Positions 9,928 to 41,890 of a DNA stretch of 41,890 bases are shown piece after piece. The notes beneath the pieces are model-generated. The model made no database searches. It was not told where the DNA came from and saw nothing but the letters and a program-made list of their open reading frames with translations. A program made the position numbers and the translations under genes. The DNA is from a virus, in IMG/VR virus record IMGVR_UViG_3300048591_000756, positions 1 through 41,890 of that record; one strand, 5' to 3'. The number at the start of each line of letters is the position of its first letter. Position 1 is the first letter of the stretch.

Positions 9928-10193
9928 AGCGGCTCGCGCGTCTGCGCATCGAACCAGCCGCGCTCGATGTCCCAGCGCAGCAGCACGGCGCCGAGGCGGT
10001 CGTCGATCGACACGCGCAGCGTCGGGCAGTGCTTCGGGTCTTCACTGTTGTGCAGCGTCTTGATGAGGTCTTCGGCGGCATCGAGCACCAGGCTCGTCTG
10101 CTCGTCGTCGGCGGCGTCGAAGCGGCCGAGCACTTTCCACGCGCCGGAATTGTTGAGCTCCAGGCGAACTGGTTTTGCGATGGCGGTGCTCAT
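9924..10193 (-). CDS. Hypothetical early phage protein
   Basis: 89 residues, soluble, beginning with a beta-like MSTAIAKPVRLELNNSGAWKVLGRFD and then a helix DDEQTSLVLDAAEDLIKTLHN. Resembles small early proteins of Burkholderiales phages but I cannot name a family. ATGA overlaps on both sides. Confidence 0.7.
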   Translation of the reverse strand: MSTAIAKPVRLELNNSGAWKVLGRFDAADDEQTSLVLDAAEDLIKTLHNSEDPKHCPTLRVSIDDRLGAVLLRWDIERGWFDAQTREPL

Positions 10194-16614: not shown

Positions 16615-16972
16615 TTTCTGTTTTGGGCCAGGTGCCGGGCCCGCGCCCGGTGCCGTCTGCGGCGCGGGCGCCCCACTCCTCCCGCCCACCGTGCGCGCGT
16701 TGGCGGCGGCCTGTTTTCTTCTCACGGGGATCGGCGCCAGTCTGGCAGCCATGAACGACGCAATACACCCCAGGGGGATCAACCGCGGTTTGAACGCGGG
16801 CGTGAAGGCATGGAGCCGAAAGCGTGCGAGAGCGCGATCGGCCGAGGCACAAACGGTGCTCCCGCTCTCGCCACGCTCCCCCATTACGCCAGCCCGGTCG
16901 GCGGACCTATGGGCAGCTTGGCAACCCGCCGCCGCGGGCCCCTTCGTGGCGTTGGAGCGAGCGCCCGCATGA
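16604..16972 (+). CDS. Hypothetical protein, possible membrane segment
   Basis: Up to 122 residues from GTG 16604, within the end of the previous gene; ATG 16751 would give 73 residues. The longer form has one hydrophobic span (VRALAAACFLLTGIGASLAAM). The TGA overlaps the next ATG (16969-16972), supporting the frame. Composition is low in information, so confidence is limited. Confidence 0.5.
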   Translation: MEVDFCFGPGAGPAPGAVCGAGAPLLPPTVRALAAACFLLTGIGASLAAMNDAIHPRGINRGLNAGVKAWSRKRARARSAEAQTVLPLSPRSPITPARSADLWAAWQPAAAGPFVALERAPA

Positions 16973-17487
16973 CCGCCCGCGGCGTCCTCACCATCGCCGA
17001 TCTGCGCGCGCGCAGCGTCCGCAAGGGCCTGTGCTGGCTCTGGCAGGGCGCGGCCAGCGGCGGCCATCCGCGCATCTGGACGTTCGACCACGCCGCCGGC
17101 GACAAGCGCACGATGACGGGCACGCGCGCGGTCTGGAACATCGCGATGCAGGCGGCCCCGCCCGCCCGGCTCGTCTTTCGCTGCTGCGGCGAGCGTGCGT
17201 GCGTGAACCCCGCGCACCTGCGACTCGCCGACGACAAGGCCTCGATGTTTGCCGCGCTCAAGCGCGACGGGCGCTTCCGCGGCACGTTCGTCGCGCAGCG
17301 CCGCGCCAACGCCGAGCTGGCCCGCATCGCAGCCGGCATCACGCCGACGCCGGCCGCCATCGTCGCCGCCATCCGCGCCGCACCGCTGCGCAGCGCCGGC
17401 GGCCCGACCAACATCGCGCTCGCCGCGCTGCACGGCATCACGCACAGCGCCGTAAGCCAGATCCGGCTCGGCAAGTCGCGCATATAG
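16969..17487 (+). CDS. HNH-like DNA-binding protein
   Basis: 172 residues. KGLCWLWQGAASGGHPRI, a central RAVWNIAM and FRCCGERACVNPAHLRLADDK reproduce the layout of phage HNH proteins (W-W start, RxxW, C..C.NP-HL). The catalytic first His of HNH is not obvious, so it may bind DNA without cutting. A C-terminal HTH-like region (GGPTNIALAALHGITHSAVSQIRLGKSR) is consistent with this. Confidence 0.75.
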   Translation: MTARGVLTIADLRARSVRKGLCWLWQGAASGGHPRIWTFDHAAGDKRTMTGTRAVWNIAMQAAPPARLVFRCCGERACVNPAHLRLADDKASMFAALKRDGRFRGTFVAQRRANAELARIAAGITPTPAAIVAAIRAAPLRSAGGPTNIALAALHGITHSAVSQIRLGKSRI

Positions 17488-17489
17488 GC

Positions 17490-18488
17490 ATGGACGCGCA
17501 CCAGGTGCTCGACCAGATGCTGGCCGCCGGGCTCGAGGCGCCGCCGCTGCCGCTCGACGTGACGGGCCGGCTGCATCGCTTCGGGCGCAAGAAGGCGAGC
17601 TGGTATCGGCTGCGCGAAGAGCGGCTCGATTCGGGCCGGCATGTGCTGCTCGGCAACTTCGGTTGCTGGCGTTCTGGCGTCTCGCAGCGCGTCAGCGTCG
17701 ACTGGCGCGGCATCGGCGAGGCCGAGCGCGCCGAGCTGGCCGCGCAGCGCGTGGTGCGCAATGCGGCGGACCAGGCCGCCCGCGCGAAGCTTGCGGCGCT
17801 GGCGCAGATGTCCGCCGGCGAGATCTGGCGCAGCGCCGTGCAGGCGGGCGAGAGCGCCTACCTGAAGCGCAAGGCGGTGCAGGCCGAGGCCTGCCGCTTC
17901 CTGCCCGACGGCTCGATCGTCGTGCCGCTGCTGCGCTACGACGCGCCGCGCGAGAGCGCGCTGCGCGCCGTGCAGCGCATCTGGCCGGACGGTCGCAAGC
18001 GCTTCACGCGCGGCTTCGAGAAGGCGGGCTGCAGCCTGCGCCTCGGCCTGGTCACGCTCGGCGAGACGATCCTGGTGTGCGAGGGCTACGCCACCGGGCT
18101 GACGCTGCGCATGGCGACATCGCGGCGCGTGCCGGTGTTCGTCGCGCTCGACGCCGGCAACCTGGCGCCGGTGTGCCGCCTGCTGCGCGATCTGTACCCG
18201 GCTTGCCCGCTGCTGATCTGCGCCGACGACGACTGGCGCACGCACGGGCCCGATGGCGCGGCGCTGAACGTGGGCCGCGCGAAGGCGCACCAGGTGAGCC
18301 GCGAGATCGAGCGGGTGAGCGTGACGTATCCGGCGTTTCGCATCGCGACGCGCGGCGATGGCGATACCGATTTCAACGATCTGCACTGTCGTGACGGCCT
18401 GCCCGAGGTGGCGCGCCAGATGCGCTGGGTGCTGCGCCATCTGTCGCCGGCGCTGTTCGGCGACGTGCCCGCGCTGGCCGCGGTCTGA
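17490..18488 (+). CDS. Toprim-domain primase-like protein
   Basis: 332 residues from ATG 17490. The second half is a Toprim domain: ILVCEGYATGLTLRMA with Glu198, FVALDAGN and LLICADDDW (Asp246-Asp248). An N-terminal phage-primase-type region (DVTGRLHRFGRKKASWYRL) precedes it. Lies directly upstream of a superfamily-3 helicase, the usual replication pair of such phages, so it is likely to prime phage DNA synthesis. Confidence 0.85.
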   Translation: MDAHQVLDQMLAAGLEAPPLPLDVTGRLHRFGRKKASWYRLREERLDSGRHVLLGNFGCWRSGVSQRVSVDWRGIGEAERAELAAQRVVRNAADQAARAKLAALAQMSAGEIWRSAVQAGESAYLKRKAVQAEACRFLPDGSIVVPLLRYDAPRESALRAVQRIWPDGRKRFTRGFEKAGCSLRLGLVTLGETILVCEGYATGLTLRMATSRRVPVFVALDAGNLAPVCRLLRDLYPACPLLICADDDWRTHGPDGAALNVGRAKAHQVSREIERVSVTYPAFRIATRGDGDTDFNDLHCRDGLPEVARQMRWVLRHLSPALFGDVPALAAV

Positions 18489-18518: not shown

Positions 18519-19988
18519 ATGGCCCCACCGACGCCCGCCGACAATGTGATGCCGCTCAGCGCCGGCCCGCCGGCAGACGTTGCCCCCCCACCCCCAGAGG
18601 ATGGCGGCGCGAACGCGCCAACCGGGGGAGAGGGGGCCGATGGCAAGCCGCCCCGCAACACGCCAAAGAAGCCGCGCGTCAAGAAGGAGCCGAACTGGGG
18701 CGACTACACGCGGCTGATGCGCAACTTCGCGCTGCTGTACGGCACCGACACGGTGTGGGATGGCGAGACGCGGCGCATCCTGAAGGTCAACGCGCTGCGC
18801 CTGGCCTTCGGTAGCGACCTGGTCAAGATGTGGCTCGGCAACCGCGAGCGGCGCATGGTGCTGGGTGAGGATGTCGTGTTCGAGCCGGCGCTCGACATCG
18901 AGGACGACCCCGCCCGCGTCAACCTCTACGACGGGTTGACGCTAGCGCCCAGGCGCGGCGATTGCGATGTGATCCTCGATCTGCTGCGCCACCTGTGCGC
19001 CGACAGCGCGCCGACGCCCGAGGGCGTGGCCGCCGTGATGGCGTGGGTGCTGCGCTGGCTGGCGCTGCCGCTGCAGCGGCCCGGCACCAAGATGCGCAGC
19101 GCGCTCGTCTTCCACGGGCCGCAGGGCGCGGGCAAGAATCTGCTGTTCGAGATCGTCGCCAAGATCTACGGCAAATACGCGCTCGTCGTCGGGCAGGACC
19201 AGCTCGAGGACAAGTTCAACGACTGGGCCAGCCAGAAGCTCTTCCTGATCGGCGACGAGGTCGTCGCGCGCGCCGAGCTGTACCACCAGAAAAACAAGCT
19301 GAAGGCGTTCATCACCGGCGAGACGATCCAGATCAACGCCAAGATGCTGCCGCTGCGCACCGAGGCGAACCACGTGAACGTGGTGTTCCTCTCGAACGAC
19401 CAGCAGCCGTTGGCGCTGGAGGAGGGCGACCGCCGCTACTTCGTCGTCTACACGCCGCCGATGCGCGACGACGGGCTGTACGGCCGCGTCGCCGCGTGCC
19501 TGGCCGATGGCGGGCACGCCGCGTTCATGCACTACCTGATGACGCTGAAGCTCGGCGAGTTCAACGAGTTCGAGATCCCGCCGATGACGCGCGCGAAGGC
19601 GGACCTGATCGAGCTCGGCCTCAAGCCGCACGAGCGCTTCGTGCGCGAATGGCTGGGCGGGTTTCTCCCGCTCCCTCTGTGGCCGTGTGCGACCGAGCAG
19701 CTCTACCGGGCATTCAAGCGCTGGACGCTGGCGACGGGCGAGCGCTTCCCGCCGGCGCAGGTGACGTTCAGCAAGGGCGTCGAGAAGATCGCGCGCGAGA
19801 AGCTGCGATGTCGCGTCGTGCACCTGGACGCGCCGGTGCACGGCAAGCTGCACCTGCGCATCTGGCAGCCCGAAGACGCCGGGCCGCCCGAGGGGCAGAG
19901 CCTGGGCGTGTGGGCGCGCGAGTGCGTGGAATCGTTCGAGGCGGCGCTCGGGCGCTTCATGGGCCATCAGAGCGAGGCTTCTGAATGA
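18519..19988 (+). CDS. Superfamily 3 helicase / DUF5906 replication protein
   Basis: 489 residues. A Pro-rich N-terminus is followed by the ATPase: Walker A GPQGAGKN (about 201-208), Walker B LFLIGDEV (about 239-246), and VVFLSNDQQPLALEEGDRRYF, the sensor and arginine-finger region of DUF5906/VapE-like phage helicases. Paired with the Toprim protein it should unwind phage DNA at the origin. Inverted repeats just downstream of it are a possible origin. Confidence 0.88.
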   Translation: MAPPTPADNVMPLSAGPPADVAPPPPEDGGANAPTGGEGADGKPPRNTPKKPRVKKEPNWGDYTRLMRNFALLYGTDTVWDGETRRILKVNALRLAFGSDLVKMWLGNRERRMVLGEDVVFEPALDIEDDPARVNLYDGLTLAPRRGDCDVILDLLRHLCADSAPTPEGVAAVMAWVLRWLALPLQRPGTKMRSALVFHGPQGAGKNLLFEIVAKIYGKYALVVGQDQLEDKFNDWASQKLFLIGDEVVARAELYHQKNKLKAFITGETIQINAKMLPLRTEANHVNVVFLSNDQQPLALEEGDRRYFVVYTPPMRDDGLYGRVAACLADGGHAAFMHYLMTLKLGEFNEFEIPPMTRAKADLIELGLKPHERFVREWLGGFLPLPLWPCATEQLYRAFKRWTLATGERFPPAQVTFSKGVEKIAREKLRCRVVHLDAPVHGKLHLRIWQPEDAGPPEGQSLGVWARECVESFEAALGRFMGHQSEASE

Positions 19989-23940: not shown

Positions 23941-24276
23941 ATGCCCCGCCCGAAAAAACAACCCCACCAGCTCGGCCCGGTGTTCGCCGACCCCGACATC
24001 GTCGACCGCATCTTCGACTACATCGCCGAGCAGTTTCCAGAGCGCTTCGGCGCCTGCCTCGATGCCGACTGCATGGCCAGGCTGAAGGACGCCACCCGCG
24101 CCGAGTTCGCCGGCAATCTGTTCTATGTCGCGAACGTCTCGCCCACCGATCGCCACCGCCGCGTCGCCGAAGTCCTGCGCCTCTTCGACGGCCGCAACGC
24201 CACCGAAGTCGCCCGCCGCCTGCAGATCTCGCGTGCCACGGTGTACCGGCTGCTGAAGCAGCCGGGCAGGCCGTGA
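23941..24276 (+). CDS. Mor-family transcription activator
   Basis: 111 residues from ATG 23941 (ATG 23902, overlapping the terminase stop, is possible). The sequence ADPDIVDRIFDYIAEQFPERFG starts the Mor dimerisation region, and GRNATEVARRLQISRATVYRLLKQ is the C-terminal HTH. Mor of phage Mu activates middle transcription by binding a dyad. Two identical dyads lie at 24290-24314 and 27289-27313, the first 14 bases after this gene, so it probably drives head and tail genes. Mor proteins are unusual between TerL and portal. Confidence 0.85.
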   Translation: MPRPKKQPHQLGPVFADPDIVDRIFDYIAEQFPERFGACLDADCMARLKDATRAEFAGNLFYVANVSPTDRHRRVAEVLRLFDGRNATEVARRLQISRATVYRLLKQPGRP

Positions 24277-24289
24277 CGGGGCGCAAACC

Positions 24290-24314
24290 GTCTCAGTTTT
24301 TATAGATTTGAGAC
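24290..24314 (+). promoter_or_regulatory. Dyad GTCTCA-N13-TGAGAC, copy 1: candidate Mor site/late promoter
   Basis: A 25-base sequence identical to 27289-27313, with a 6-base inverted repeat around an AT-rich core containing TATAGAT. AT-rich DNA is rare here, so the exact duplication 3.0 kb apart is not chance. It lies 24 bases before the gpW-like gene and just after the Mor-like gene. A terminator is a less likely reading: the stem is short and there is no trailing U-run. Confidence 0.7.
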
Positions 24315-24338
24315 ACCCAGCGGCATAGCCTGCCGCCC

Positions 24339-24542
24339 ATGGCTCTATCGCAGGCAGACCTTGACGCGCTCGACCTGGCGATCGCGTCCAGCGAGCTCGA
24401 AGTGCAGCTCGAAGGCCGGCGCGTCAAGTACCGCTCGACCGACGAGCTGCTGAAGGCGCGCGCCTACATCGCCGGCCTGCTCGCCGGCCCGAAGCGCACC
24501 ACGAGCTACCACTACAACATGACCACGCAGCGCGGAGACTGA
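24339..24542 (+). CDS. gpW-like head-tail joining protein
   Basis: 67 residues. LSQADLDALDLAIASSELEVQLEGRRVKYRSTDELLKARAYIAG is the compact gpW fold (two helices around a hairpin with YRS-DELL). In lambda gpW stabilises packaged DNA and prepares heads for tail binding. Its TGA overlaps the portal ATG. Confidence 0.88.
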   Translation: MALSQADLDALDLAIASSELEVQLEGRRVKYRSTDELLKARAYIAGLLAGPKRTTSYHYNMTTQRGD

Positions 24543-26437
24543 TGATGCCCAACGTCATCGACCGCCTCGTCGGCTACTTCGCCCCCGCCGCCGGCCGCGC
24601 GCGCCAGTACCACCGCGTGCTGCTCCAGCGCGCCTACGAGGCCGCCAGCCCGCGCGACAAATGGCGCCCGCGCCGGGCAGGCGCCAGCGCCAACGCCGAC
24701 CACCTGGCCGACGCTTCCCGCATCCGTGCCAAGGCGCGCGCGCTGCGCCAGAACGTACCCTACATCGCCGCCGGGCTCGAGGCGCTCGTCGATGCAACCA
24801 TCGGCACCGGCGTCGTCGTGCGCGCCACCGGCAGCCAGGCCGAGCGCATCAACGCCGTGCTCGCGCAGTGGAAGCGCGTCTGTGACGCCGATGGCCGCTT
24901 CGATTTCGACGGCCTCGTCGCCTGCGCCTACGACACCATGGAGCAGGACGGCGAAGTCCTCGTCCGCCTGCGCCCGCGCCTGATCGGCGACGGCCTGCCC
25001 GTTCCTCTGCAGCTCCAGCTGCTCGAAATCGACTGGCTCGACAGCGCACGCAACGGCAGCGCCGGCGGCAACCGCATCGTCAACGGCATCGAATACGACG
25101 CCCTCGGCCGTGTTGCCGCCCACTACCTTTTCGACGAGCACCCCGGCGACGTTGGCCCGTTGCGCTCGATGAGCACGCAAAGCAAGCGCGTGCCCGCCGA
25201 GTTCATCATCCACCTCTACTCCGCCAAGCGGCCGGGGCAGGGCCGCGGCTTCAGCCGCCTGGCGCCCGTCATCGTCCGCACGCGCGACCTGCAGCTCTAC
25301 GAAGACGCCGAGCTCGCTCGCAAGAATCTGGAGACGCGCCTCGGCGTCGTCTACAGCGGCGACGCCTCGCTGCTCGCCAACCCCGCCACCCTCGGCGGCG
25401 CCGCCGACGTTGACGAGGCGCGCCGCAGCGGCGATCTCGGCGAGCTCTCCAGCGGCGGCATCATCGAGCTGCCTGCCGGAGGCAACCTGATGAGCGTCGA
25501 GCCCAAGCCCGCCGGCGGCTATACCGAGTACGTCAAGCAGCAGCTCCACCTCATCGCCAGCGGCATGGGCGTCACCTACGAGATGATGACCGGCGACGTG
25601 AGCGAGACCAACTTCAGCAGCGCCCGCGTGCGCCTGCTCGATTTCCGCCGCGCCGTGCAGCGCATGCAGTGGCTCACGCTCGTGCCGCGCCTGCTGCAGC
25701 CGATCCACGCCGCCTTCATCGATGCCGGCATCCTCGCCCGCGCCTTCACCGCGCGCAACTACGCCGTCGAGTATTCCTTTCCGAAGTGGGACTACGTCAA
25801 CCCCGAGCAGGATGTCAAGGCCGACCTCGCCGAGATCTCCGGCGGCCTCGCCAGCCTCTCCGAAAAGCTGCGCCAGCGCGGCTACAACCCCGACGACGTG
25901 TTCACCGAGCTCGCCGCCGACCGCCAGAAGCTCGAAGACCTCGGCCTCATCGACTGGCTGCTCTTCAAAGAGACGAGCAAACAGCCCGTCGACCCGCAGG
26001 CCGCGGCCACCGCCGGCGCCGCCAACGCGCGCGCCTTCGACGCCCTCGCCACGCTGCTCGACCGCATGGACACGCGCCTCGCCGGCCTCGAGCAGCGCAG
26101 CACCAGCGTCACCGTGAACCAGGGCGACAACATCGTGCAGACGCCTGCACAGACGATCGAGAACCGCATCGACGTGCCGGCCCAAGCGCCGCCCGTCGTC
26201 AACGTCGCCGCCGGTGCCGCGCCCGAAGTGCGCGTCGTCAACGAGCTGCCGCCCCAGCCAGCGCCGATCGTCAACGTCACCGCCGCGCCAGCCGAAGTGC
26301 GCGTCGTCAACCAGGTCGAAGCCCCGGTCGTCAACGTCCACGCCCCCGACCGCGAAGAAGTCACCGACGTGCAGCGCGACAAGGCCGGCCGCATCACCCG
26401 CACCGTCAAGACACATCGCCGCGCTGACGGCGGCTAG
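24542..26437 (+). CDS. Portal protein (lambda GpB family)
   Basis: 631 residues. Lambda-type portal signature: RALRQNVPYIAAGLEALVDATIGTGV, ALGRVAAHYLFDEHPGD, FIIHLYSAKRPGQGRGFSRLAPVI and GMGVTYEMMTGDVSETNFSSARVRLLDFRR. The C-terminal 100 residues carry repeated EVRVVN / PxVNV units, a low-complexity extension after the normal portal end. It forms the dodecameric DNA channel of the capsid. Confidence 0.95.
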   Translation: MMPNVIDRLVGYFAPAAGRARQYHRVLLQRAYEAASPRDKWRPRRAGASANADHLADASRIRAKARALRQNVPYIAAGLEALVDATIGTGVVVRATGSQAERINAVLAQWKRVCDADGRFDFDGLVACAYDTMEQDGEVLVRLRPRLIGDGLPVPLQLQLLEIDWLDSARNGSAGGNRIVNGIEYDALGRVAAHYLFDEHPGDVGPLRSMSTQSKRVPAEFIIHLYSAKRPGQGRGFSRLAPVIVRTRDLQLYEDAELARKNLETRLGVVYSGDASLLANPATLGGAADVDEARRSGDLGELSSGGIIELPAGGNLMSVEPKPAGGYTEYVKQQLHLIASGMGVTYEMMTGDVSETNFSSARVRLLDFRRAVQRMQWLTLVPRLLQPIHAAFIDAGILARAFTARNYAVEYSFPKWDYVNPEQDVKADLAEISGGLASLSEKLRQRGYNPDDVFTELAADRQKLEDLGLIDWLLFKETSKQPVDPQAAATAGAANARAFDALATLLDRMDTRLAGLEQRSTSVTVNQGDNIVQTPAQTIENRIDVPAQAPPVVNVAAGAAPEVRVVNELPPQPAPIVNVTAAPAEVRVVNQVEAPVVNVHAPDREEVTDVQRDKAGRITRTVKTHRRADGG

Positions 26438-26475
26438 GAAGCCCGGGGCCACCCCCGACCAGAGGAGACAGACCG

Positions 26476-26751
26476 ATGAACATCCGCCTTGCACTCGCCA
26501 TCCTGTTCCTCACGTTCGCCATGCTGCCCGCAGCGCACGCCCGCACCCAATGCAAGCCCGCCGGAATGGAATACATCCACGCCTTCGAGCAGCGCCCGAA
26601 TTGGGGCGTTTACTGGTGGTGCGACTACAAGACCTACGACTACACCGTCATCATCCCCGAGGACTCTACGGGCCGAACGGGGCCGACTACATCGGCACGT
26701 TCGCCGCTCCGACAGCAGGCGACATCGCAAGCGCCGTGCTCGCCGCGCTGA
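26476..26751 (+). CDS. Signal-peptide protein, N-terminal frame
   Basis: 91 residues from ATG 26476, with AGAGGAG eleven bases upstream. A signal peptide (MNIRLALAILFLTFAMLPAAHA) precedes a short mature domain up to YDYTVIIPED (about 63); after that the frame runs out in random-looking sequence. The following frame (26664-26972) continues with phage-like sequence, so a single base loss near 26664 probably interrupts one gene. Confidence 0.6.
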   Translation: MNIRLALAILFLTFAMLPAAHARTQCKPAGMEYIHAFEQRPNWGVYWWCDYKTYDYTVIIPEDSTGRTGPTTSARSPLRQQATSQAPCSPR

Positions 26752-26972
26752 ACGCGACGACGATCCCGACGAACGTCAAGAAGGTCAACGACGTAGAAGT
26801 CACTGACGGCGTCCTCACCACCGACCAGGCCGCCCAGCTCGCCGCGCTGGCCAAGATCCACGGCCTGATCTCTGGCACGCCGCTCGTTGTCAGCGCAACC
26901 GCGCGCACCGCGGGCGACGTATCGCAGACCGTCGATGATGTCGGCGGTGTCGTGACCGTCACCCGCGTTTAG
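26664..26972 (+). pseudogene. C-terminal part of the frameshifted head-region protein
   Basis: This frame reads LYGPNGADYIGTFAAPTAGDI, then ALNATTIPTNVKKVNDVEV, and finishes with LAALAKIHGLISGTPLVVS and a VTVTRV end, a tail typical of small structural proteins in siphophage head regions. It has no good start of its own. One extra C after 26664 would join it to the signal-peptide ORF as ...IIPEDLYGPNG. Sequencing error, mutation or programmed shift are possible. Confidence 0.55.
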
Positions 26973-26989
26973 CCGCAGCAGGCCCGCGC

Positions 26990-27247
26990 ATGTTCGCGCT
27001 GACGCCGCTCGCGATCGCGCTGCAGGGCATCGGCTACGGCACGCTGCTCGCGTCGCTGCAGGGCCTCGTCGCCGTCACGATCGAGCCCGAGCCCGTCGAC
27101 GACACGGCAGGCTCCCTCGCCGCCGTCCAGCCGCGCCACCGCCCGCGCCGCTGGCGCCGCCTGTTCGACGTGCCGAACCCGGCCGACCTGCTCGCCGCGC
27201 TCGAGGCCGAGGACGAAGAGCTGCTGCTCGAAGCCGGCGCGCTGTAG
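26990..27247 (+). CDS. Small hypothetical head-region protein
   Basis: 85 residues, hydrophobic at the N-terminus (LTPLAIALQGIGYGTLLASLQGLVAV) and acidic at the end (LLAALEAEDEELLLEAG). Located between the portal and protease genes. Function unknown; possibly a capsid accessory or regulator. Confidence 0.6.
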   Translation: MFALTPLAIALQGIGYGTLLASLQGLVAVTIEPEPVDDTAGSLAAVQPRHRPRRWRRLFDVPNPADLLAALEAEDEELLLEAGAL

Positions 27248-27288
27248 GGGCCCGCCCGCGCGCGCCCGCGCGCACGTCATCGCAAATC

Positions 27289-27313
27289 GTCTCAGTTTTT
27301 ATAGATTTGAGAC
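27289..27313 (+). promoter_or_regulatory. Dyad GTCTCA-N13-TGAGAC, copy 2: candidate Mor site/late promoter
   Basis: Exact copy of 24290-24314, 25 bases before the protease/capsid start at 27339, the same spacing as copy 1 to its gene. It would give the capsid operon an extra dose of activated transcription, which fits the high capsid demand. Binding by the Mor-like protein is inferred, not shown. Confidence 0.7.
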
Positions 27314-27338
27314 AGCGCCGTGCGCACCATGGCCCTCC

Positions 27339-29408
27339 ATGACGAAACCCACCGCTGCCGGCACCCGCGAAGGGAACGGCGCCGCGACGCACGACATGCC
27401 GCTGCAGCTGCGCGGCGCGCAGCTCGCGCCGGCGACGTTCCGCGAATCCGACAACTCGATCGAGGTCGTCTGGACGACGGGCTTCCGCCGCCGCGCCTAC
27501 GACTGGTACAACGACCAGGTCTACGAGGAAGAGCTCGACGTGTCCACCGAAGCGGTGAACATGGAGCGCTTCGCCGCCGGCACGCTGCAGGTGATCGACA
27601 GCCACCGCACCTACGGCGGCGTCGAGTCGATCCTCGGCATCGCCATCGAGGGCAGCGTCGCCACCGGCGAAGGCCGCGCCCGCATCGCCCTCAGCACCGA
27701 CCCGGCCAAGGCCGGCGTCGTCGGCGACATCCGCGCCGGCGTCATCCGCGCGATGAGCTTCGGCTACTCGGTCGAGAAGTACGAAATCACCCGCGCGCAG
27801 GACCGCACCGACGGCGTCAACCTGCCGCTCTATCGCGCCGTGCGCTGGACGCCGATGGAGCTCACCTTCTGCGCCGTCGGCGCCGACCCCAACGCCGCGC
27901 CGCGCGCCGCCGAAGAGGCGCTCACCCGCTCCAAACCCGAACACGGCACGCCGTGCGAATTTGCCGTCCGATCCCTGGCCCAACCGAAAAAGGAAGCCAC
28001 CATGTCCGAAGCCGAACTCCAGGCCCAGCGCGACGCTGACGCCGCCGCCGCCACGCAACGCGCCGCGCAGGATGCCGCCGTCGCGGCTGCTGCCGCCGCC
28101 GCCGCCACCGCCGCCGCGCAGCGCGCCGCCGACATCACCGAGCTGTGCACCCGCCACCACGCGCCGCAGCTCGCCGCCGGCCTGATCCGCAGCGACAAGA
28201 CGGTCGAGCAGGCCGGCCTGGCCGTGCTCGAAGACATGGCCGCCCGCAGCAACGCCGCCGGCGGCAACCTGAACGTGCGCACCCTCGTCGACGAGACGCA
28301 GACGCGCCTGGCCGGCATCGAAGAAGCGCTGCTCTCGCGCGTCGACGCCCGCGCCCCCCTCACCGACAACGGCCGCCAGTTCCGCAGCATGAGCCTGCTC
28401 GAGGTCGGCCGCGAGCACCTCGAGCGCGCCGGCCTGAACACCCGAGCGATGGATCGGATGCAGCTCGCCACGCAGATCCTCATGTTCCGCTCCGGCGGCA
28501 TGATGGGCACGAGCGACTTCGCCAGCCTGCTGCAGAACGTCGCCACCAAGCGCCTGCGCGGCGGCTACGACGAGAACATGCCGTCCTACCGCATGTGGGC
28601 CCGCCGCGCGCCGAACGCGCCCGACTTCAAGACGATGAGCGTCGTCAACCTGGCCGGCGCGCCCGACCTGTTGCAGACGAACGAGCATGGCGAGTTCAAG
28701 TACGGCGCCATGACCGACGGCAAAGAGACCTACGCGCTCACCACCTACGGCCGCATCGTCTCGCTCACCCGCCAGGCGATCGTCAACGACGACCTGCGCG
28801 GCTTCGACCGCCTGGTCGGCGCCTTCGGTAACAGCGCGGCGCGGCTCGAGAACCGCACCGTCTACGCCATCCTCACCGCGAACGCGGCCATGGGCGACGG
28901 CGGCGCGCTGTTCAACGCCACGGCCGTCACCACCCCCGGCGGCCACGCCAACCTGACCAGCTCGGGCACCGCCATCAGCGTCGACTCGCTCGGCGTCGGC
29001 CGCGCCAACATGCGCGCCAAGAAGGGCCTGCAAAGCGAGGAGCTCAACCTCGCGCCGAAGTACCTGATCGTGCCGGCCGCCAAGGAGCAACTCGCCTACC
29101 AGTACACGAGCAGCCAGTTCGTGCCGGCCACGTCGTCGGCGGTGAACGAATTCCGCGCCGGCGGCCGCACCGCGCTCGAGCCGGTGGTCGAGGCCATCCT
29201 CGACGCCAGCAGCGACAAGTCCTGGTATCTGGCCGCCGACAGCGGCGCGATCGACACCGTCGAATTTTGCTACCTCGACGGCGCCGAAGGCCCCGTCATC
29301 GAAAGCGAAGTCGGCTTCGAAGTGGACGGCCTGTCCTACAAGTGCCGGCTCGATTTCGCCGCCAAGGCGATCGACTGGCGCGGCCTCTACAAGAACGCCG
29401 GCGCCTGA
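27339..29408 (+). CDS. Prohead protease-scaffold-major capsid fusion
   Basis: 689 residues. Residues about 20-215 match U35-type prohead protease: DSHRTYGGVESILGIAIEGS (His), RAGVIRAMSFGYSVEKYEI and WTPMELTFCAVGADPNA. An Ala-rich helical scaffold (AAAAAAATAAAQRAADITEL, about 245-268) links to a HK97-fold-like major capsid region from about 330 (MGTSDFASLLQNVATKRLRGGYDE, VVNLAGAPDLLQTNEHGEFKYG, GRIVSLTRQAIVNDDL). Fusions of these three functions are known. An internal start at 28002 may produce the scaffold-capsid alone. Confidence 0.92.
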   Translation: MTKPTAAGTREGNGAATHDMPLQLRGAQLAPATFRESDNSIEVVWTTGFRRRAYDWYNDQVYEEELDVSTEAVNMERFAAGTLQVIDSHRTYGGVESILGIAIEGSVATGEGRARIALSTDPAKAGVVGDIRAGVIRAMSFGYSVEKYEITRAQDRTDGVNLPLYRAVRWTPMELTFCAVGADPNAAPRAAEEALTRSKPEHGTPCEFAVRSLAQPKKEATMSEAELQAQRDADAAAATQRAAQDAAVAAAAAAAATAAAQRAADITELCTRHHAPQLAAGLIRSDKTVEQAGLAVLEDMAARSNAAGGNLNVRTLVDETQTRLAGIEEALLSRVDARAPLTDNGRQFRSMSLLEVGREHLERAGLNTRAMDRMQLATQILMFRSGGMMGTSDFASLLQNVATKRLRGGYDENMPSYRMWARRAPNAPDFKTMSVVNLAGAPDLLQTNEHGEFKYGAMTDGKETYALTTYGRIVSLTRQAIVNDDLRGFDRLVGAFGNSAARLENRTVYAILTANAAMGDGGALFNATAVTTPGGHANLTSSGTAISVDSLGVGRANMRAKKGLQSEELNLAPKYLIVPAAKEQLAYQYTSSQFVPATSSAVNEFRAGGRTALEPVVEAILDASSDKSWYLAADSGAIDTVEFCYLDGAEGPVIESEVGFEVDGLSYKCRLDFAAKAIDWRGLYKNAGA
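28002..29408 (+). CDS. Scaffold-capsid product from an internal start
   Basis: ATG 28002 is in frame (221 codons into the fusion), and AAAAAGGAAG at 27986-27995 provides a Shine-Dalgarno. The product (468 residues) starts MSEAELQAQRDADAAAA, ideal for a delta/scaffold domain plus capsid. This parallels lambda C/Nu3 internal initiation and would give the many capsid copies needed per protease. Use of the site is inferred. Confidence 0.55.
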   Translation: MSEAELQAQRDADAAAATQRAAQDAAVAAAAAAAATAAAQRAADITELCTRHHAPQLAAGLIRSDKTVEQAGLAVLEDMAARSNAAGGNLNVRTLVDETQTRLAGIEEALLSRVDARAPLTDNGRQFRSMSLLEVGREHLERAGLNTRAMDRMQLATQILMFRSGGMMGTSDFASLLQNVATKRLRGGYDENMPSYRMWARRAPNAPDFKTMSVVNLAGAPDLLQTNEHGEFKYGAMTDGKETYALTTYGRIVSLTRQAIVNDDLRGFDRLVGAFGNSAARLENRTVYAILTANAAMGDGGALFNATAVTTPGGHANLTSSGTAISVDSLGVGRANMRAKKGLQSEELNLAPKYLIVPAAKEQLAYQYTSSQFVPATSSAVNEFRAGGRTALEPVVEAILDASSDKSWYLAADSGAIDTVEFCYLDGAEGPVIESEVGFEVDGLSYKCRLDFAAKAIDWRGLYKNAGA

Positions 29409-35683: not shown

Positions 35684-36528
35684 AAACCGTTCCGGCCGAC
35701 CTCGTCAACTGCGGCACGCTCGTCTTCGGCGTGCGCATCGTGCGCCGCGACGGCGCGGTGATCGCATGGACGCAGCACGACCGCGACCAGACGGTGACGG
35801 TCGACGGCGAATCGACCCTGCTCGCCGCCAACCCGGGCTTCACCGTCAGCAACTTCGCCAGCGCCGCCGGCCTGGCCGTCGACAACGCGGAAATCTTCGT
35901 CGCGGCCGCCGTCGACCTCACCCGCGCCGACATCCTCGCCCGCAAGTGGGACGGCGCGCGCGTCTACTTCTTCCGCTACAACTGGAAGCTCCCAGCCTCC
36001 GGAATCATCCCCGTCAAGCGCGGCAGCTTCGGCAACTTCGCGCCGCAGCAGGGCCAGTTCAAGGTCGAATTCCGGGACCAGCGCCAGGCGCTGCAGCAGA
36101 ATTCCACGTGGGTGATCCAGGAGGCCTGCCGCTGGCGCCTTGGCGACGCGCGCTGCACCGTCGATCTCGGCCCGTTCACGTACGCCGCCGAAGTGACGGC
36201 CGTCGCCAGCCCCTACGAGTTCACCTCCACCGATCTCGACCAGGCCGACGACTACTTCGGCGAAGGCTTCGTCAACTGGCTCACCGGCCTGAACGCCGGC
36301 ACGCCCGGCCACAAGGTGAAGACGTTCGCAGCCGGCGTCGTCACGCTGAGCGAGTTCGCTGTCTACGCGATCGATGTCGGCGACACCTTCGAGATCACCG
36401 CCGGCTGCCGCAAGCGCTGGGACGCTGACTGCCGCGACAAGTTCGACAACATCATCAACTTCGGCGGTGAGAAAGACAAGCCCACGCGCGATGAGCTCGT
36501 CGCGGCCACTGACGAGATGGCGCCATGA
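35680..36528 (+). CDS. DUF2163 tail protein (BR0599 family)
   Basis: 282 residues from GTG 35680, overlapping the preceding TGA. It has the N-terminal DUF2163 pattern (AWTQHDRDQTVTVDG, AGLAVDNAEIFVAAAVDLTRADILARKWDGARVYFFRYNW) and the C-terminal BR0599 segment with Cys-rich ACRWRLGDARCTVDLG and ITAGCRKRWDADCRDKFDNIINFGGE. Part of the tail-tip hub set with DUF2460 and NlpC. Confidence 0.92.
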   Translation: MKTVPADLVNCGTLVFGVRIVRRDGAVIAWTQHDRDQTVTVDGESTLLAANPGFTVSNFASAAGLAVDNAEIFVAAAVDLTRADILARKWDGARVYFFRYNWKLPASGIIPVKRGSFGNFAPQQGQFKVEFRDQRQALQQNSTWVIQEACRWRLGDARCTVDLGPFTYAAEVTAVASPYEFTSTDLDQADDYFGEGFVNWLTGLNAGTPGHKVKTFAAGVVTLSEFAVYAIDVGDTFEITAGCRKRWDADCRDKFDNIINFGGEKDKPTRDELVAATDEMAP

Positions 36529-36944
36529 CGCTCGACGACGCCGCGCGCACCCTCATCGGCACGCCCTACCATACCAAGGGCCGGCTGCCCGGCGTCGGGC
36601 TCGACTGCATCGGCGTGCCGATCGTCGCCGCCTGGATCGCAGGCCTCAAGCCGCGCAGCTTCGATGTCCGCGGCTACAGCGATGTTCCCGACGGCTCGCT
36701 GCTGCCGCTGTGCGACAAGCACATGCAGCGCGTGCCACGCGCCGAGATGCGCGCGGGCGACGTGATCGTCGTGCGCTACGGCGCCACGCCTCACCACGTC
36801 GGCGTGCTCGGTGCGTACCGGCACGGCGGCCTGTCGATCATCCATGCGGAGAACGACCGTCACCGCAAAGTGATCGAACACCGCCTGTGGCTCGATGGCG
36901 CGATGAAGTTCGTCGCCGCCTACCGCATCGAGGCCGCAGCATGA
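36525..36944 (+). CDS. NlpC/P60 tail-tip peptidase
   Basis: 139 residues. The catalytic Cys is in VGLDCIGVPIVAAW (about 27), and the His in GATPHHVGVLGAY (about 92). Membership in the NlpC/P60 family of tail peptidases (lambda K-like) is supported by position after DUF2163. It probably opens peptidoglycan during DNA entry. ATGA overlaps on both sides. Confidence 0.9.
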   Translation: MTLDDAARTLIGTPYHTKGRLPGVGLDCIGVPIVAAWIAGLKPRSFDVRGYSDVPDGSLLPLCDKHMQRVPRAEMRAGDVIVVRYGATPHHVGVLGAYRHGGLSIIHAENDRHRKVIEHRLWLDGAMKFVAAYRIEAAA

Positions 36945-39900
36945 CCGCGCGCGCAGGCCTCATCGTCGTCGGCCAGGTCGCTGGCGCATTCGTCGGCGGC
37001 CCGATCGGAGCGGCCATCGGCGGCGCGATCGGCGGCGCGATCGGCGGCGCGATCGGCGGCCCGCAGCGCAACACGCAGGCGCTGCTCGACGACCTGGGCG
37101 CCGTCAAGTTCGACTACGGCAGCAGCTGGCCGCGCATCTACGGCGTCTACCGCGTCAAGCTCACGCCGATCTGGTCGAGCGAAAAGCGCCCCGTCGCGCA
37201 CGAGGAAGAAGTCAATTCCAAGGGCGGCCCGGATCAGGTGAACAGGACATTCACGTATGAGCAGGACTGGCTCTGCTGGGCGCCGCTCAACGCCGTCGGC
37301 TGGGCGCGCATCTGGATCAACGGCAAGTTGCGCGCGAGCCGCCTGGCCGATGCCGACGCGGACACCATCGAGGCCAGCGCCGCGCAGCCCGCCTGGGCCG
37401 ACGTGACCTTCTTCGACGGCGCCGCTGACCAACTGCCATGGGCTGTGTACGAAGCCGCAGTCGGCACCGAAAACGCCTGCGCCTACCGATTCCGCCCGAC
37501 GCTCGCCTTCAGTTCGCTCGACCTCGGCAACAGCGGCCAGCCGCCGCTGATCGAGGTGGAGTTTGCGAGCGGCGATTCGAGCATCGAAAGCCTCGACACG
37601 ATCCAGTTCGCCGACGCGGTTGCGATGACGGGCTCTCTGCAGAGCAACCTGCGCCCGTGGGGCGCTATCGCCTTCGGCAACCCGACGCGCGTGCCGACGT
37701 TCGCGGTCAGCGCCGATCTGATCCCCGTCACTGCCCCGGGCTGCTGCCCACTCGACGGGGAAGGCTTCCCGCGCTGGAGCCCGCCGGATGTGGCGGCCAT
37801 CATCTGCTGGGATGTTGACCACAACGGCGTCGAAACGCAGGTTTCGCAAAACGTGCTGCCCGGCGGCTTCGGCCGCACCCCGGGCATCGGCAGCGGCAAC
37901 CGCGCGATCTGCGTCGTCGCGACATCGGGCATCTTGCCGATCAAGGTCGCCATTGCGGGCGATGGCGCGTCGGCGGTCTACGAGCTGCCGGACGAAGACA
38001 ACTGGCTCGGCGTTGCCGAACTTCGCTTCGCGGTCTGGGGCGCGACGCTCGCGCTCGGCACCACGCTCGGGGTCGATGCAAAGCCGGAGGATGTCACCGG
38101 CACCTACGTCGGCAACCGCGGCAACATCTACCTCTGCACCGACGCAGGGGCGCACGTTGCAACGATCCCCGCTGCGATCCCTGTCGAATCGCTCGCGATG
38201 AACGGCGAGACCGTGTGGGCGCTGCATGACGGTGATGTCTACCCATTCACGCGCACCACGCTCGCCGCCGGCACCCCGTTCGCGTGCGAGGGCTCGGCAA
38301 TTTTTGTCGACGCGTCCGGCACGCTTTGCCATGTCCACGGCAGCGCGGTCTATCGGCGCGCCGATGACGCGTGGCTGCTGCTCGGCACGATGACCGGGCC
38401 GGTCGATACGACGCATTTCTTCGGCGCGACCGCTACGCAGATCTATGCAGCCTGCGGCACGGAAAAAGAAGTTTCCAACGTCGGTCTGTTCGTCCAGCGC
38501 TCGTATGACGGCCATGGATTCGACACTCTTGATGGCGCGGTGCAGCACTATGCTGAATACTATTTCAACAGCTTCTACACCTTAGCCTACACGCACCGTG
38601 CAGTCAGAAATCAGTGCATCTGCGTCTACCAGATCGAGACAGGCCCCTACAAGGTTGCAACGTGGGAGGCGGTTTTCTCGTGCGAACGTCTCTACGGCTA
38701 CCCGGGGGACACCTCAGGCATCTTCGACGACCCGCTCGACGAATGGGTATGGGAGCCGGCGTCGACTACAGGCATCTTCGATCTGAATGATGGCGCGGAC
38801 TTTGACCTCAAGTTCCACGACCTCTTCCGCCAGCCGTTCCAGTCGGTCATCGATCCCGAGACGATCCCGCTCTCCGAGATCGTGCAAGCCGAGGAACTGC
38901 TCGAATGGACGGGCGAAGCCGGCGCGCTGACGGTGGCCGACATCGACGTGACCGAGCTTGAAGAGACGCCAGTACGCGGCTTCCTCACGACGAGCAGCCC
39001 GCGCGAATCCGTCGCGCAGTTGATGGACATCTTCTACTTCGGAGCGGTCTGTTCCGACAAGCTCTACCACCGCCTGCGCGGCGCAGCCTCGATCGATACC
39101 GTCACGGCCGACGACGCAGGCGCGGGCGTCGGCGGCGCGGGCGAAGTGTTCGCCGGCCTCGCTCGCGGCAACGACCTCGAGCAGGCGATCCAGGTCGCCG
39201 TCACCGGCCCGAACGTGCTCACCGACTACGAGCCCGGCACCGAGACCAGTGACCGCCTCGTCGGCGAGTCCGTCGAGCTGCGCCGCTACAGCACCGCCGT
39301 CGTCCTCACCCCGCCCGAGCGCAAGGGCCGCGCCGACACGATGGTGCTCGACGGCCGCGTCGCATCGCACACCGGGCAAGTCTCGCTCGACGACCGCCAC
39401 GCCGAGAAAGAGCCGTTCGACGTGTGGACGCAGCTCGACGATGAAGGCAACGCCTACCGCGTGCGCGCCGACCGCGAGACCTACGCCGACGGCGTGCGCA
39501 CGTTCGATGTCGTGCTCGATGACGCCACCGTGCTCTCGTCGGTCGGCATCACCACCGAGACCGACAGCCGCGCGTTGACGGTGCGATCCGCCGACGGCAC
39601 CGACCTGCTGCTGCTCGACATCCCCGCGCTGCGCGACACCGACGCCACCGGGCCCGGCTTCTACGCCGCAGGTCGCGGCGCCGGCCCGCGCTGGTCGGGC
39701 TACAGCCTGTTGGAAAGCGCCGACGGCGTGAGCTTCGGCAAGGTGCTCGACGCCAGCGTCGCCGCCGTCTCCGGCACCTGCTCCACGGTGCTCGGGGACT
39801 ATGCCGGCGGCAACGTCGTTGACAACGCCAACAGCGTCACCGTCAACAGCAGCGCAGCGCTCGCGAGCTACACCGACGACCAGATCATCGCCGGCACCGC

Positions 39901-40492
39901 GCAGGCGTACCTGATCGGCGCCGAGATCATCGTCGCGCGCGAGGCAACACTCGTCAGTGCGGGCGTCTACACATTGAGCGGCCTGCAGCGCGGCCTGCGC
40001 GGCACCGAATGGGCGATCGGCGCCCACGTAGCCGACGAGCGCTTCGCGCAACTCGACACCGGCGCCCGCCGCGTCACCGACGAGACGCCAGACCTCGCCG
40101 TCACGCGCTTTTGGAAGGGCGTCACGTACGGCCAGCGCGCGAGCGATGTGGCAGCGGTCACATTCGCCGACACCGGCGTCAGCCTGAAGCCGTTCGCCCC
40201 GGTGGATCTGGAAATGACGCTCGACGCCGGAGACGACGTGCTGACCTGGCACCGCCGCAGCCGCATGGCCGGGCGCCTGCTCAACACGACGCAGCCGCAA
40301 CTCGGCGAAGCGAGCGAGGAATACAGCGTCGAGCTGCGCGACGGCAGCGACGCACTCGTCAGCACCGACACCGTGACCGAGCCGCGCTGGGTCAGCCCCG
40401 GCGGCAGCCTCGCCGGCTACAGCCTGACCGTCTACCAACTCTCGTCCATCGTCGGCCGCGGCTACCCCGCGACCCTGGAGATTCCCGCATGA
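36941..40492 (+). CDS. Tail tip attachment protein (J/Phage-tail_3-like)
   Basis: 1183 residues. It begins with a hydrophobic glycine-zipper made of repeated IGGA units from a 12-base tandem repeat (37012-37060). J-like elements include FDYGSSWPRIYGVYRVKLTPIWSS and, near the end, LRGTEWAIGAHVADERFAQLD and LTVYQLSSIVGRGYPATLEIPA. A 300-residue middle stretch (about 260-580) with repeated short beta motifs (NIYLCTDAGAHVATIP, SAVYRRADDAWLLLGTM) looks like an inserted propeller-like domain. It should carry host-receptor specificity. Confidence 0.9.
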   Translation: MTARAGLIVVGQVAGAFVGGPIGAAIGGAIGGAIGGAIGGPQRNTQALLDDLGAVKFDYGSSWPRIYGVYRVKLTPIWSSEKRPVAHEEEVNSKGGPDQVNRTFTYEQDWLCWAPLNAVGWARIWINGKLRASRLADADADTIEASAAQPAWADVTFFDGAADQLPWAVYEAAVGTENACAYRFRPTLAFSSLDLGNSGQPPLIEVEFASGDSSIESLDTIQFADAVAMTGSLQSNLRPWGAIAFGNPTRVPTFAVSADLIPVTAPGCCPLDGEGFPRWSPPDVAAIICWDVDHNGVETQVSQNVLPGGFGRTPGIGSGNRAICVVATSGILPIKVAIAGDGASAVYELPDEDNWLGVAELRFAVWGATLALGTTLGVDAKPEDVTGTYVGNRGNIYLCTDAGAHVATIPAAIPVESLAMNGETVWALHDGDVYPFTRTTLAAGTPFACEGSAIFVDASGTLCHVHGSAVYRRADDAWLLLGTMTGPVDTTHFFGATATQIYAACGTEKEVSNVGLFVQRSYDGHGFDTLDGAVQHYAEYYFNSFYTLAYTHRAVRNQCICVYQIETGPYKVATWEAVFSCERLYGYPGDTSGIFDDPLDEWVWEPASTTGIFDLNDGADFDLKFHDLFRQPFQSVIDPETIPLSEIVQAEELLEWTGEAGALTVADIDVTELEETPVRGFLTTSSPRESVAQLMDIFYFGAVCSDKLYHRLRGAASIDTVTADDAGAGVGGAGEVFAGLARGNDLEQAIQVAVTGPNVLTDYEPGTETSDRLVGESVELRRYSTAVVLTPPERKGRADTMVLDGRVASHTGQVSLDDRHAEKEPFDVWTQLDDEGNAYRVRADRETYADGVRTFDVVLDDATVLSSVGITTETDSRALTVRSADGTDLLLLDIPALRDTDATGPGFYAAGRGAGPRWSGYSLLESADGVSFGKVLDASVAAVSGTCSTVLGDYAGGNVVDNANSVTVNSSAALASYTDDQIIAGTAQAYLIGAEIIVAREATLVSAGVYTLSGLQRGLRGTEWAIGAHVADERFAQLDTGARRVTDETPDLAVTRFWKGVTYGQRASDVAAVTFADTGVSLKPFAPVDLEMTLDAGDDVLTWHRRSRMAGRLLNTTQPQLGEASEEYSVELRDGSDALVSTDTVTEPRWVSPGGSLAGYSLTVYQLSSIVGRGYPATLEIPA

Positions 40493-41529
40493 GCACCTTC
40501 CCGCAGATCACATCGCCGCCGCAGGCATCGGCCGAGGTGCTCGTAAACCGCATGGGCGAGTCGCTCGAGCACCAGGCCGTCTACGGTCTCAAGCACAGCA
40601 CGACGACCGGCCTGTCGTGGGCCTACTACGGCGGCCGATGGGGCGGCTTCGCGATCACCGACGGCGTGCTGATGCTGACCGATGCGTCGGCGAACTACAT
40701 CGTCGTCGAGATCGCCAGCGGCGACATCAGCGTCGACACCGCCAGCACCGACTGGGACGACGACACCAACTACGTGCGCGTCTACAAGGTGACGACCGTG
40801 GGTGGCGTGGTGACGGCGGTGGAAGACCACCGCGCTGGGCCGGGCGGGGTACATGGCGGGGCGGGTGGCGGTGGTGGCGGCAGCGGCACCGTCACGAACA
40901 CCGGCGGCGACCTGGACGCGAACGCGGTCGTGCTCGGCGCCGGCGGCGACGATGCGACGGTGATGGCCTCGCTCGGCAGTTCGGGCCAGGTGCTGACGAG
41001 CGCTGGCGTCGGCGCGCCGCCGACGTGGGAGACGCCAAGCGGAGGCGGCAGCGGCACCAAGACCTACGCCGTCTTCACCCCGATGACGAGCCAGCCGCCG
41101 GCGTCGAACTACGCCACGCTCGACACGCGCAACAGCATCGCGGTGCTGGATTTCGACGCGGTGACCGAAGAGGCTGTGCACTGGGTTGGCGTCATGCCCG
41201 AGGGCGCGTCGCTCGGCTCCGGCCTGAAGGTGCGCATTCACTGGATGGCGACGAGCGCGACTGCCAATGATGTCGTGTGGGGCGCAAGTTTCGAGGCGAT
41301 GACGACCGACCTCGATTCCGACTCGTTCGACACCGAGACCACCGCCACCGGCACCGCTAACGGCACGAGCGGCATCGAGACGGTGACGGAGATCACCTGC
41401 ACGACGATCGACAGCATCGCCGCGGGCGGGCTGTACCGCCTGAAGATCGCGCGCAAGGCGGCGGCGGGCGGCGACAACATGAGCGGCGACGCCGAGCTGA
41501 TCGCCGTCGAGGTGCGGAGCGCCGCCTGA
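40489..41529 (+). CDS. Tail fibre protein
   Basis: 346 residues, ATGA overlap with J. N-terminal 110 residues (AYYGGRWGGFAITDGVLMLTD) form an attachment domain. A Gly-rich hinge (about 120-136) and a fibre-spacer segment (TVTNTGGDLDANAVVLGAGGDDATVMASLGSSGQVL) follow, then a beta C-terminus. This spacer repeat is a common phage fibre unit. Likely trimeric host-recognition fibre. Confidence 0.82.
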   Translation: MSTFPQITSPPQASAEVLVNRMGESLEHQAVYGLKHSTTTGLSWAYYGGRWGGFAITDGVLMLTDASANYIVVEIASGDISVDTASTDWDDDTNYVRVYKVTTVGGVVTAVEDHRAGPGGVHGGAGGGGGGSGTVTNTGGDLDANAVVLGAGGDDATVMASLGSSGQVLTSAGVGAPPTWETPSGGGSGTKTYAVFTPMTSQPPASNYATLDTRNSIAVLDFDAVTEEAVHWVGVMPEGASLGSGLKVRIHWMATSATANDVVWGASFEAMTTDLDSDSFDTETTATGTANGTSGIETVTEITCTTIDSIAAGGLYRLKIARKAAAGGDNMSGDAELIAVEVRSAA

Positions 41530-41890
41530 TGGCCTGGACGTTCAGCGGCTCGGGGCAGCACGCGCGGGCGAACACCGGCGCCATCGTGTCGGCGTACCCG
41601 ATCACGATCTTCGCGCGCGGCAAGAGCACCGACCTCGCCAACCTTCAGACTCTCGCGACGTTTGTGCAGAACAGTGGCACTTACAACGGCTGTGCACTTT
41701 TTTTCGCCGGGGCGACGGGCGGCGACCCGATGAGTTTCAGCAAGTTCGGCGGCGTCCATGCCAACAGCGTGGCGGGCTACTCGTCTGGCGTGTGGGTCGC
41801 CGCGGCAGGCCGCGCCAGCGGCGCAACGCAACTAGACATCGACCTCGACGGCACGGTGACGGCGGGCGCATCGACATCGGTGGCGTTTCC
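41529..41890 (+). CDS. LamG-like tail protein (N-terminal part; continues at 1)
   Basis: ATG 41529 overlaps the fibre stop. MAWTFSGSGQHARANTGAIV starts a beta-sandwich; the frame is open to the window end. The equivalent bases at 1-558 finish the gene in the same frame with about 221 residues overall. Asn44-equivalent here versus Ser in the left copy is the one difference (base 41764). Confidence 0.72.
   Translation, partial: MAWTFSGSGQHARANTGAIVSAYPITIFARGKSTDLANLQTLATFVQNSGTYNGCALFFAGATGGDPMSFSKFGGVHANSVAGYSSGVWVAAAGRASGATQLDIDLDGTVTAGASTSVAF
41637..41890. repeat. Terminal direct repeat, right copy
   Basis: Identical to bases 1-254 except for A41764 against G128. See the left copy; together they close the circle at 41,636 bp. 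Confidence 0.93.

Follow-up and report, generated by a model that had tools for sequence, protein, structure and literature searches.

The Mor and C proteins of phage Mu are activators that substitute for a −35 element (PMC4390567; PMC4287176). The Mu promoter Pm has a dyad overlapping the −35 region, a −10 element without a −35 element, and a proximal UP element directly upstream; the Mor site is 16 bp long, with 5-bp arms and a 6-bp spacer, and is centred at −43.5 (PMC4390567), and one Mor/C protein, Mu C, serves several dyad-bearing late promoters (PMC4287176). Here we describe a related arrangement in IMG/VR record IMGVR_UViG_3300048591_000756, a 41,890-bp virus record analysed over its whole length (the window), in which a gene for a Mor-like protein is followed by two identical 25-bp dyads, one ahead of a gpW-like gene and one ahead of a protease-capsid gene. 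From comparison with related phages, we consider it highly probable that the Mor-like protein binds both dyads and activates two σ70 promoters of head genes. Literature searches, limited to open-licence PMC, listed no paper describing these dyads or a lambda-like late switch driven by Mor.

The likeness to Mu Mor and Pm lies in a phage activator with a C-terminal helix-turn-helix (HTH) motif, a dyad at the −35 region and an A/T-rich proximal UP site, accompanied here too by a −10 element and a poor −35 region. The dimensions differ. In place of a 16-bp dyad with 5-bp arms, a 6-bp spacer and a centre at −43.5, the dyads described here have 6-bp arms and a 13–16-bp spacer (25–28 bp in total), are centred at about −36, and carry their right arm 11 bp from the −10 element. 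Whereas Mu Mor serves one middle promoter, the activator here would act at two late promoters that follow its own gene, and most of their transcripts are predicted to be leaderless. The Mu C late promoters (Plys, PI, PP and Pmom) share the use of one Mor/C protein at several late promoters with dyads, but Mu has a transposable genome plan and another dyad, whereas the sites here lie on either side of the portal region in a head module of the lambda-like type. The locus comprises the following features.

23941..24276, + strand: Mor-like activator gene, 111 amino acids, C-terminal HTH (Pfam, PHROG and PDB profile matches)
24229..24240, + strand: codons 97–100 (S R A T), start of the predicted recognition helix; 97 and 99 covary with the dyad arms (AlphaFold helix 98–105, column association)
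24285..24288, + strand: A-rich patch, proximal UP-element-like, just 5′ of dyad 1 (A/T columns over 157 sites)
24290..24314, no strand assigned: dyad 1, GTCTCA-N13-TGAGAC, predicted activator site of the gpW promoter
24326..24331, + strand: predicted −10 element TAGCCT of late promoter 1 (xAnnnT at offset 11 in 153/157 related sites)
24338, + strand: predicted transcription start 1, 1 nt before the gpW ATG (placed 7 nt after the −10 element)
24339..24542, + strand: gpW-like head-tail adaptor gene, opening late block 1, no Shine-Dalgarno sequence (SD) (phrog_2545, E 3e-15; SD energy −1.7)
24542..26437, + strand: portal protein gene (PF05136, E 3e-87)
27284..27287, + strand: A/T patch just 5′ of dyad 2 (sequence and A/T columns of related sites)
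27289..27313, no strand assigned: dyad 2, the same 25-mer, predicted activator site of the protease-capsid promoter
27325..27330, + strand: predicted −10 element CACCAT of late promoter 2 (offset of site 1; CACCAT is the −10 element at 4/72 capsid sites)
27337, + strand: predicted transcription start 2, 2 nt before the capsid ATG
27339..29408, + strand: protease-major capsid fusion gene, opening late block 2, no SD (phrog_4523, E 1.6e-200; SD energy −1.5)

The first-pass annotation of this DNA had reported identical 25-base dyads 24–25 bases before the gpW and protease/capsid genes, beyond a Mor-like gene ending at 24276, and all of this holds. The two dyads are exact copies (GTCTCAGTTTTTATAGATTTGAGAC), the gpW ATG at 24339 lies 24 nt past dyad 1, the protease-capsid ATG at 27339 lies 25 nt past dyad 2, and the list of open reading frames (ORFs) confirms the end of the Mor-like gene. 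No third copy was found in the window allowing up to 2 mismatches, nor any extra copy in the record allowing up to 3 (reversed-pattern control: 0). When up to 2 mismatches are tolerated, chance alone would give 1.17 occurrences of the two-arm pattern. The arms by themselves could therefore easily arise by chance; what is improbable is two identical 25-mers that both lie directly before head genes. Elsewhere in IMG/VR, the exact 25-mer occurs in a single contig, in two copies at equivalent positions, and that contig encodes an identical Mor protein. The AT-rich core with TATAGAT, which the annotation had singled out, is genuine in the window phage but is not conserved: apart from the window's own two sites, TATAG recurs at just one other (3 of 157 in all), and the predicted −10 element sits downstream of the dyad. 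TATAGAT was accordingly rejected as a −10 element.

The window protein matches Pfam PF08765 (Mor; E 4.7e-5) and PHROG 532 and 836, annotated as ‘late transcriptional activator’, and a profile search of the PDB retrieves Mor (1rr7/9l0y, E 8e-4) as well as the Mu C complexes 9l0x and 9vw8. In alignment A1, 15 of the 16 members match Mor at E ≤ 1e-3 (best 1.1e-8), and 15 of 16 match PHROG 532/836. Its FNGRN, a form of the F(N/D)GRN motif, and its HTH align with Mu Mor 1rr7, so that the C-terminal HTH of the Mor/C family is in place. The AlphaFold model (predicted local distance difference test score 74, predicted template modelling score 0.40) has HTH helices at 87–94 and 98–105, with residue 97 just before the recognition helix and residue 99 at its start. 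Foldseek with this model ranks 1rr7 first, as a weak match (E 0.069), and VIA-align to Mor gives Z 6.1 and a root-mean-square deviation of 10.4, a tie with other HTH proteins. Among isolated phages, tblastn with the window Mor and with the Mor of locus L287 gave no match, and tblastn with that of L284 gave only distant Mor-family matches, in Shewanella and Vibrio phages.

A comparative search for Mor genes paired with dyads, as the first-pass annotation had proposed, bore out the pairing. Thirty IMG/VR loci encode Mor relatives, and in 29 of them there is a dyad that fits GTCTCA-N13..15-TGAGAC with no more than one mismatch; the sequence of the remaining one, L032, ends inside the Mor gene. 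The dyad lies directly after the Mor gene, or at gpW where genes are inserted, and in most IMG/VR loci with enough DNA a second dyad, at a distance of about 1.8 to 5.5 kb from the first, precedes the protease-capsid gene. Genome contigs yielded 21 matches, of which 18 are clear relatives, all with a dyad and 17 with two, at a site-to-site spacing of about 1.7 to 5.9 kb; the other three cover only 22–27 residues and have no dyad. The hosts of these related phages and prophages are mostly Burkholderiales, the genomes being those of Massilia, Delftia, Comamonas, Rhodoferax, Undibacterium, Rubrivivax, Variovorax and Acidovorax and bins labelled just Burkholderiales or Proteobacteria. A sample of 399 genomes from one bacterial order gave two matches, one of which is the genome used as the centre. 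In one collection the best 80 of 206 Mor relatives were retained, and loci of one contig may recur across searches.

The association also appears when the protein is ignored. Among the matches listed, a DNA scan with the arms and xAnnnT recovered a Mor-like gene in 56 of 119 new loci, and a scrambled-arm control recovered one in 0 of 120. Where genes are inserted between Mor and gpW (L018, L024, L288, L342 and L355), the dyad remains with gpW, which fits a gpW promoter and not a mor terminator. A divergent Mor-like group (L045, L060, L064, L065, L073, L095, L101, L117 and L119; 28–39 bits) has GTCTCA dyads with a gap of 14 or 15, and L065 has three of them.

The promoter layout was read from 157 distinct sites in 85 sources (protein-collected loci and the window), after dropping sites followed by less than 350 nt. 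The strongest positions of a σ70 −10 element are A−11 and T−7. A hexamer of the form xAnnnT begins exactly 11 nt past the right arm in 153 of the 157 sites, and at other offsets from 4 to 29 nt in 0 to 6 sites each; in the four exceptions the −10 element is displaced by 1 nt. The canonical arms were fixed beforehand, and the list of variant arms is not wholly independent of the −10 element, which the inverted-repeat search rewarded. The offset is constant for gaps of 13, 14, 15 and 16, indicating that the right arm, not the dyad centre, is phased to the hexamer. The columns directly 5′ of the left arm are 97%, 91% and 82% A/T. With the normal 17-bp spacing, a sequence agreeing with TTGACA at four or more positions occurs at just 31 of the 157 sites, and a promoter scan of the window stretch found none; the −10 element is preceded by TGn at 4 sites. 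With +1 placed 7 nt after the −10 element, dyad 1 would cover −48 to −24, with its centre at −36.

Mor relatives without GTCTCA have other dyads at the equivalent place, and these follow the recognition helix. For this comparison, arms were taken as inverted repeats chosen without regard to arm sequence and with a bonus for a −10 element; 88 protein-collected rows gave 86 unique cores, three lacking assigned arms were dropped (L036, L041 and L028) and the window was added (n = 84). Of those dropped, L041 and L028 do carry GTCTCA arms (gaps 16 and 15), with the −10 element moved by 1. Proteins with A99 and S or G at 97 have GTCTCA or the ATCTCA/GTCTCG forms in 69 of 70 cases and GTCCCA/TGAGAC in one; T99 goes with GTCCCA/TGG(A,G)AC (3/3), R99 with GTG(C,A,T)CA/TGGCAC (3/3), H97 with GTCGCA/TGCGAC (4/4), H97 plus T99 with GTAGCA/TGCGAC (1/1), and S99 with GTCTCA (two) or GTCCCA/TGAGAC (one). 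Columns 99 and 97, in this order, have the highest arm association of all columns, and the mutual information of these residues with the arms was reached in 0 of 20,000 permutations.

The second site changes in parallel. In two-site phages the right arm is shared in 72 of 72 cases and the gap in 71 of 72, the far sites having been located by family pattern plus −10 element and not blindly. A matching change at the second site is seen in L039, L040, L346, L305, L309, L337, L317, L308, L342 and L381, with single-base left-arm differences between the sites in L346 and L342. In the sequences compared, the recognition-helix residues and both dyads thus change together. In a tree with the helix residues masked, L039 (T99/GTCCCA) is sister to canonical L289 (100/84), L035 to L292 (97/84) and L317 (R99) to canonical L351 (100/91), while L305 and L342 adjoin L321. 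Close sisters with changed and unchanged forms indicate that specificity changed more than once; on this tree, both T99 and R99 have more than one origin.

From this comparison we infer binding, activation rather than repression, and the start positions. A Mor/C-type dimer, or a higher oligomer, would bind both dyads and recruit host σ70 RNA polymerase to two promoters, each with a −10 element 11 bp past the right arm, an A-rich proximal UP-like patch and no good −35 element. PDB entries 1rr7 and 9l0y hold five chains in total, so the solved Mu complex may contain more than two subunits. The activator gene lies upstream of both sites, and the terminase transcript most likely supplies its product ahead of the late phase. 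Promoter 1 would drive gpW, portal and downstream genes, and promoter 2 would restart or boost transcription at the protease-capsid gene, which would free capsid output from cargo genes inserted after the portal gene.

Several observations weigh against this reading. The window protein scores slightly below the Pfam Mor gathering cut-off (23.8 versus 24.9 bits). The right half-site would lie at about −29 to −24, the position of σ region 4 and spacer DNA, unlike Mu Pm, and the mechanism is therefore not transferable from Mu. The permutation test ignores relatedness, and the masked tree rests on few columns and has many open forks. The code has exceptions, namely L333 (A99 with GTCCCA/TGAGAC) and S99, which occurs with GTCTCA (two) or GTCCCA (L040 and L381), and L036 has no recognisable dyad. 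The first-pass proposal of a local Mor-type activator with two sites as a late switch stands, supported by the conserved pairing and by arms that track the helix, with these corrections: the geometry is unlike Pm, the −10 element lies 11 nt past the dyad and most transcripts are predicted to be leaderless.

The predicted transcripts have little room for a leader. Start codons were classed as 72 capsid sites and 76 gpW sites, 9 of 157 remaining unclassified. At 67 of the 72 capsid sites, 6–8 nt separate the −10 element from the start codon (0–2 or 9 nt in the others, some of which are GTG picks slightly upstream of an ATG). At the gpW sites this interval is no longer than 10 nt in 53 of 76, the other 23 having 23–58 nt. 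The predicted start consequently falls on or just before the start codon in all 72 capsid sites and in those 53 gpW sites. Random places have a good SD (≤ −4.5 kcal/mol) in 18% of cases, whereas the rate is 4% for starts of the capsid gene and 13% for gpW starts with the short interval; in the window, the portal gene and several other genes, though not every gene, have clear SDs. Capsid codons 2–17 have 533 of 1084 changes at third positions (49%), compared with 2811 of 7585 upstream (37%) and 1463 of 2717 in later codons (54%), so the early capsid codons look translated. Taken together, short spacing, few SDs and coding-like early codons indicate that transcripts should start on or 1–2 nt before the ATG. 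The capsid mRNA and most gpW mRNAs should accordingly be leaderless, depending on the −10 assignment. Leaderless mRNA is known from lambda cI. We regard as rather unlikely a variant with the same promoters but leadered translation, in which the true start of the capsid ORF is a codon further along that has an SD: an in-frame ATG or GTG within 30 codons with a good SD is present in 11 of 72 capsid ORFs, versus 4 of 72 in a control frame, but codons 2–17 show the third-position excess.

A dyad at about −48 to −24, overlapping the −35 region, is placed where repressors also act, and the Mor-like protein could bind there to shut the late promoters off. The polymerase alone would, however, find no −35 element at most of these promoters, given the TTGACA and TGn counts above, and the named relatives (Mor, C and PHROG 532/836) are activators, which makes repression improbable.

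The dyads might instead belong to another phage or host regulator, with the Mor-like gene a mere neighbour. Many GTGCCA-N15-TGGCAC elements have the identical offset to the −10 element and start codon with no clear Mor nearby, so another regulator may use equal geometry, and 63 of the 119 dyad loci among the matches listed lack a Mor match, although many of these are fragments or chance matches. We nevertheless consider this explanation very improbable, because no other residues predict the arms as well as 97 and 99, and these change in parallel with them. Moreover, protein-blind reverse scans gave 16 stretches with GTCCCA promoters and 85 with GTGCCA promoters; the three strong Mor matches among the latter (L399, L407 and L422; 86–139 bits) all read SRRTVYR (R99), and the single GTCCCA stretch with Mor, L381, reads GRSTVYR (S99). 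In L434 and L457, both GTGCCA stretches, a weak match of a different kind (23.5 bits, SRSTFYR) sits apart from the dyad.

An RNA hairpin serving as terminator, attenuator or processing signal is hardly tenable, for although the dyad RNA folds at −8.1 kcal/mol (z −4.8 and −3.1) and a terminator-like match at 24278–24294 overlaps the left arm of dyad 1, the terminator reading was rejected on a weak hairpin and the lack of a T-run in relatives (T-rich tail in 5 of 157 sites, mismatched arms in 23), and a hairpin leaves the fixed −10 phasing and the recognition-helix association unexplained.

With activation by the Mor-like protein as the preferred reading, we think it reasonably likely that a widespread prophage lineage uses an activator-dependent promoter pair with a leaderless capsid mRNA, and that residues 97 and 99 amount to a code able to evolve, one that has changed several times in parallel along with both sites and has thereby produced naturally insulated late switches. 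What would be new relative to Mor/C systems is the wider dyad, the phasing, the two late head promoters, the probable leaderless mRNAs and a readable specificity code. A Mor/C branch not studied before thereby gains a defined target, a promoter layout and a reading code, and with the dyad pattern, late promoters in prophages can be called from sequence. Should the 5′ ends fall at the predicted positions, translation of a high-output phage capsid gene would depend on a leaderless mRNA, and the question arises how such an mRNA is translated efficiently late in infection. That one protein and two sites have switched in parallel makes this a clear natural example of a regulator coevolving with its sites, and the pairs of activator and promoter would serve as orthogonal parts.

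Other dyads were seen beyond this family. L391, L397, L410, L421, L437, L452 and others of L390–L469 carry up to three GTGCCA-N15-TGGCAC dyads per contig, with a core near CCGGTAAA; xAnnnT again starts 11 nt past the dyad, and an ATG follows at about 24 nt. These dyads precede gpW-like, tail-like and lysozyme-like genes (named by eye), with no clear Mor nearby. They are possibly a parallel late-promoter system of another phage group with another activator. The nearest named phage by portal protein is Stenotrophomonas phage S1 (51% over 76%), which has gp5 between the terminase gene and the gpW-like gp6, with a VYR-type helix at the end of gp5 (by eye). A hidden Markov model search of phage S1 found no Mor match at E 1e-5, and S1 differs in having no GTCTCA dyad and another inverted repeat between gp5 and gp6. 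This repeat (L161, about 5678–5715; by eye) is long and GC-rich, with arms GGTGCGGGTGAGT, and is possibly the site of another Mor-like protein.

Elsewhere in the window, the neighbouring ORFs at 16824–18488 and 18519–19988 resemble two halves of a split primase gene, one matching the front and the other the back of family phrog_2249. The family phrog_2044, which carries the label RNA polymerase beta subunit, gives a short match (E 1.5e-7) to an ORF at 8936–10081 (− strand). An endolysin gene lies at the left end (1883–3046), and tail genes at 36374–41888 run past the right end, which suggests a circularly permuted record with one late block spanning the ends.

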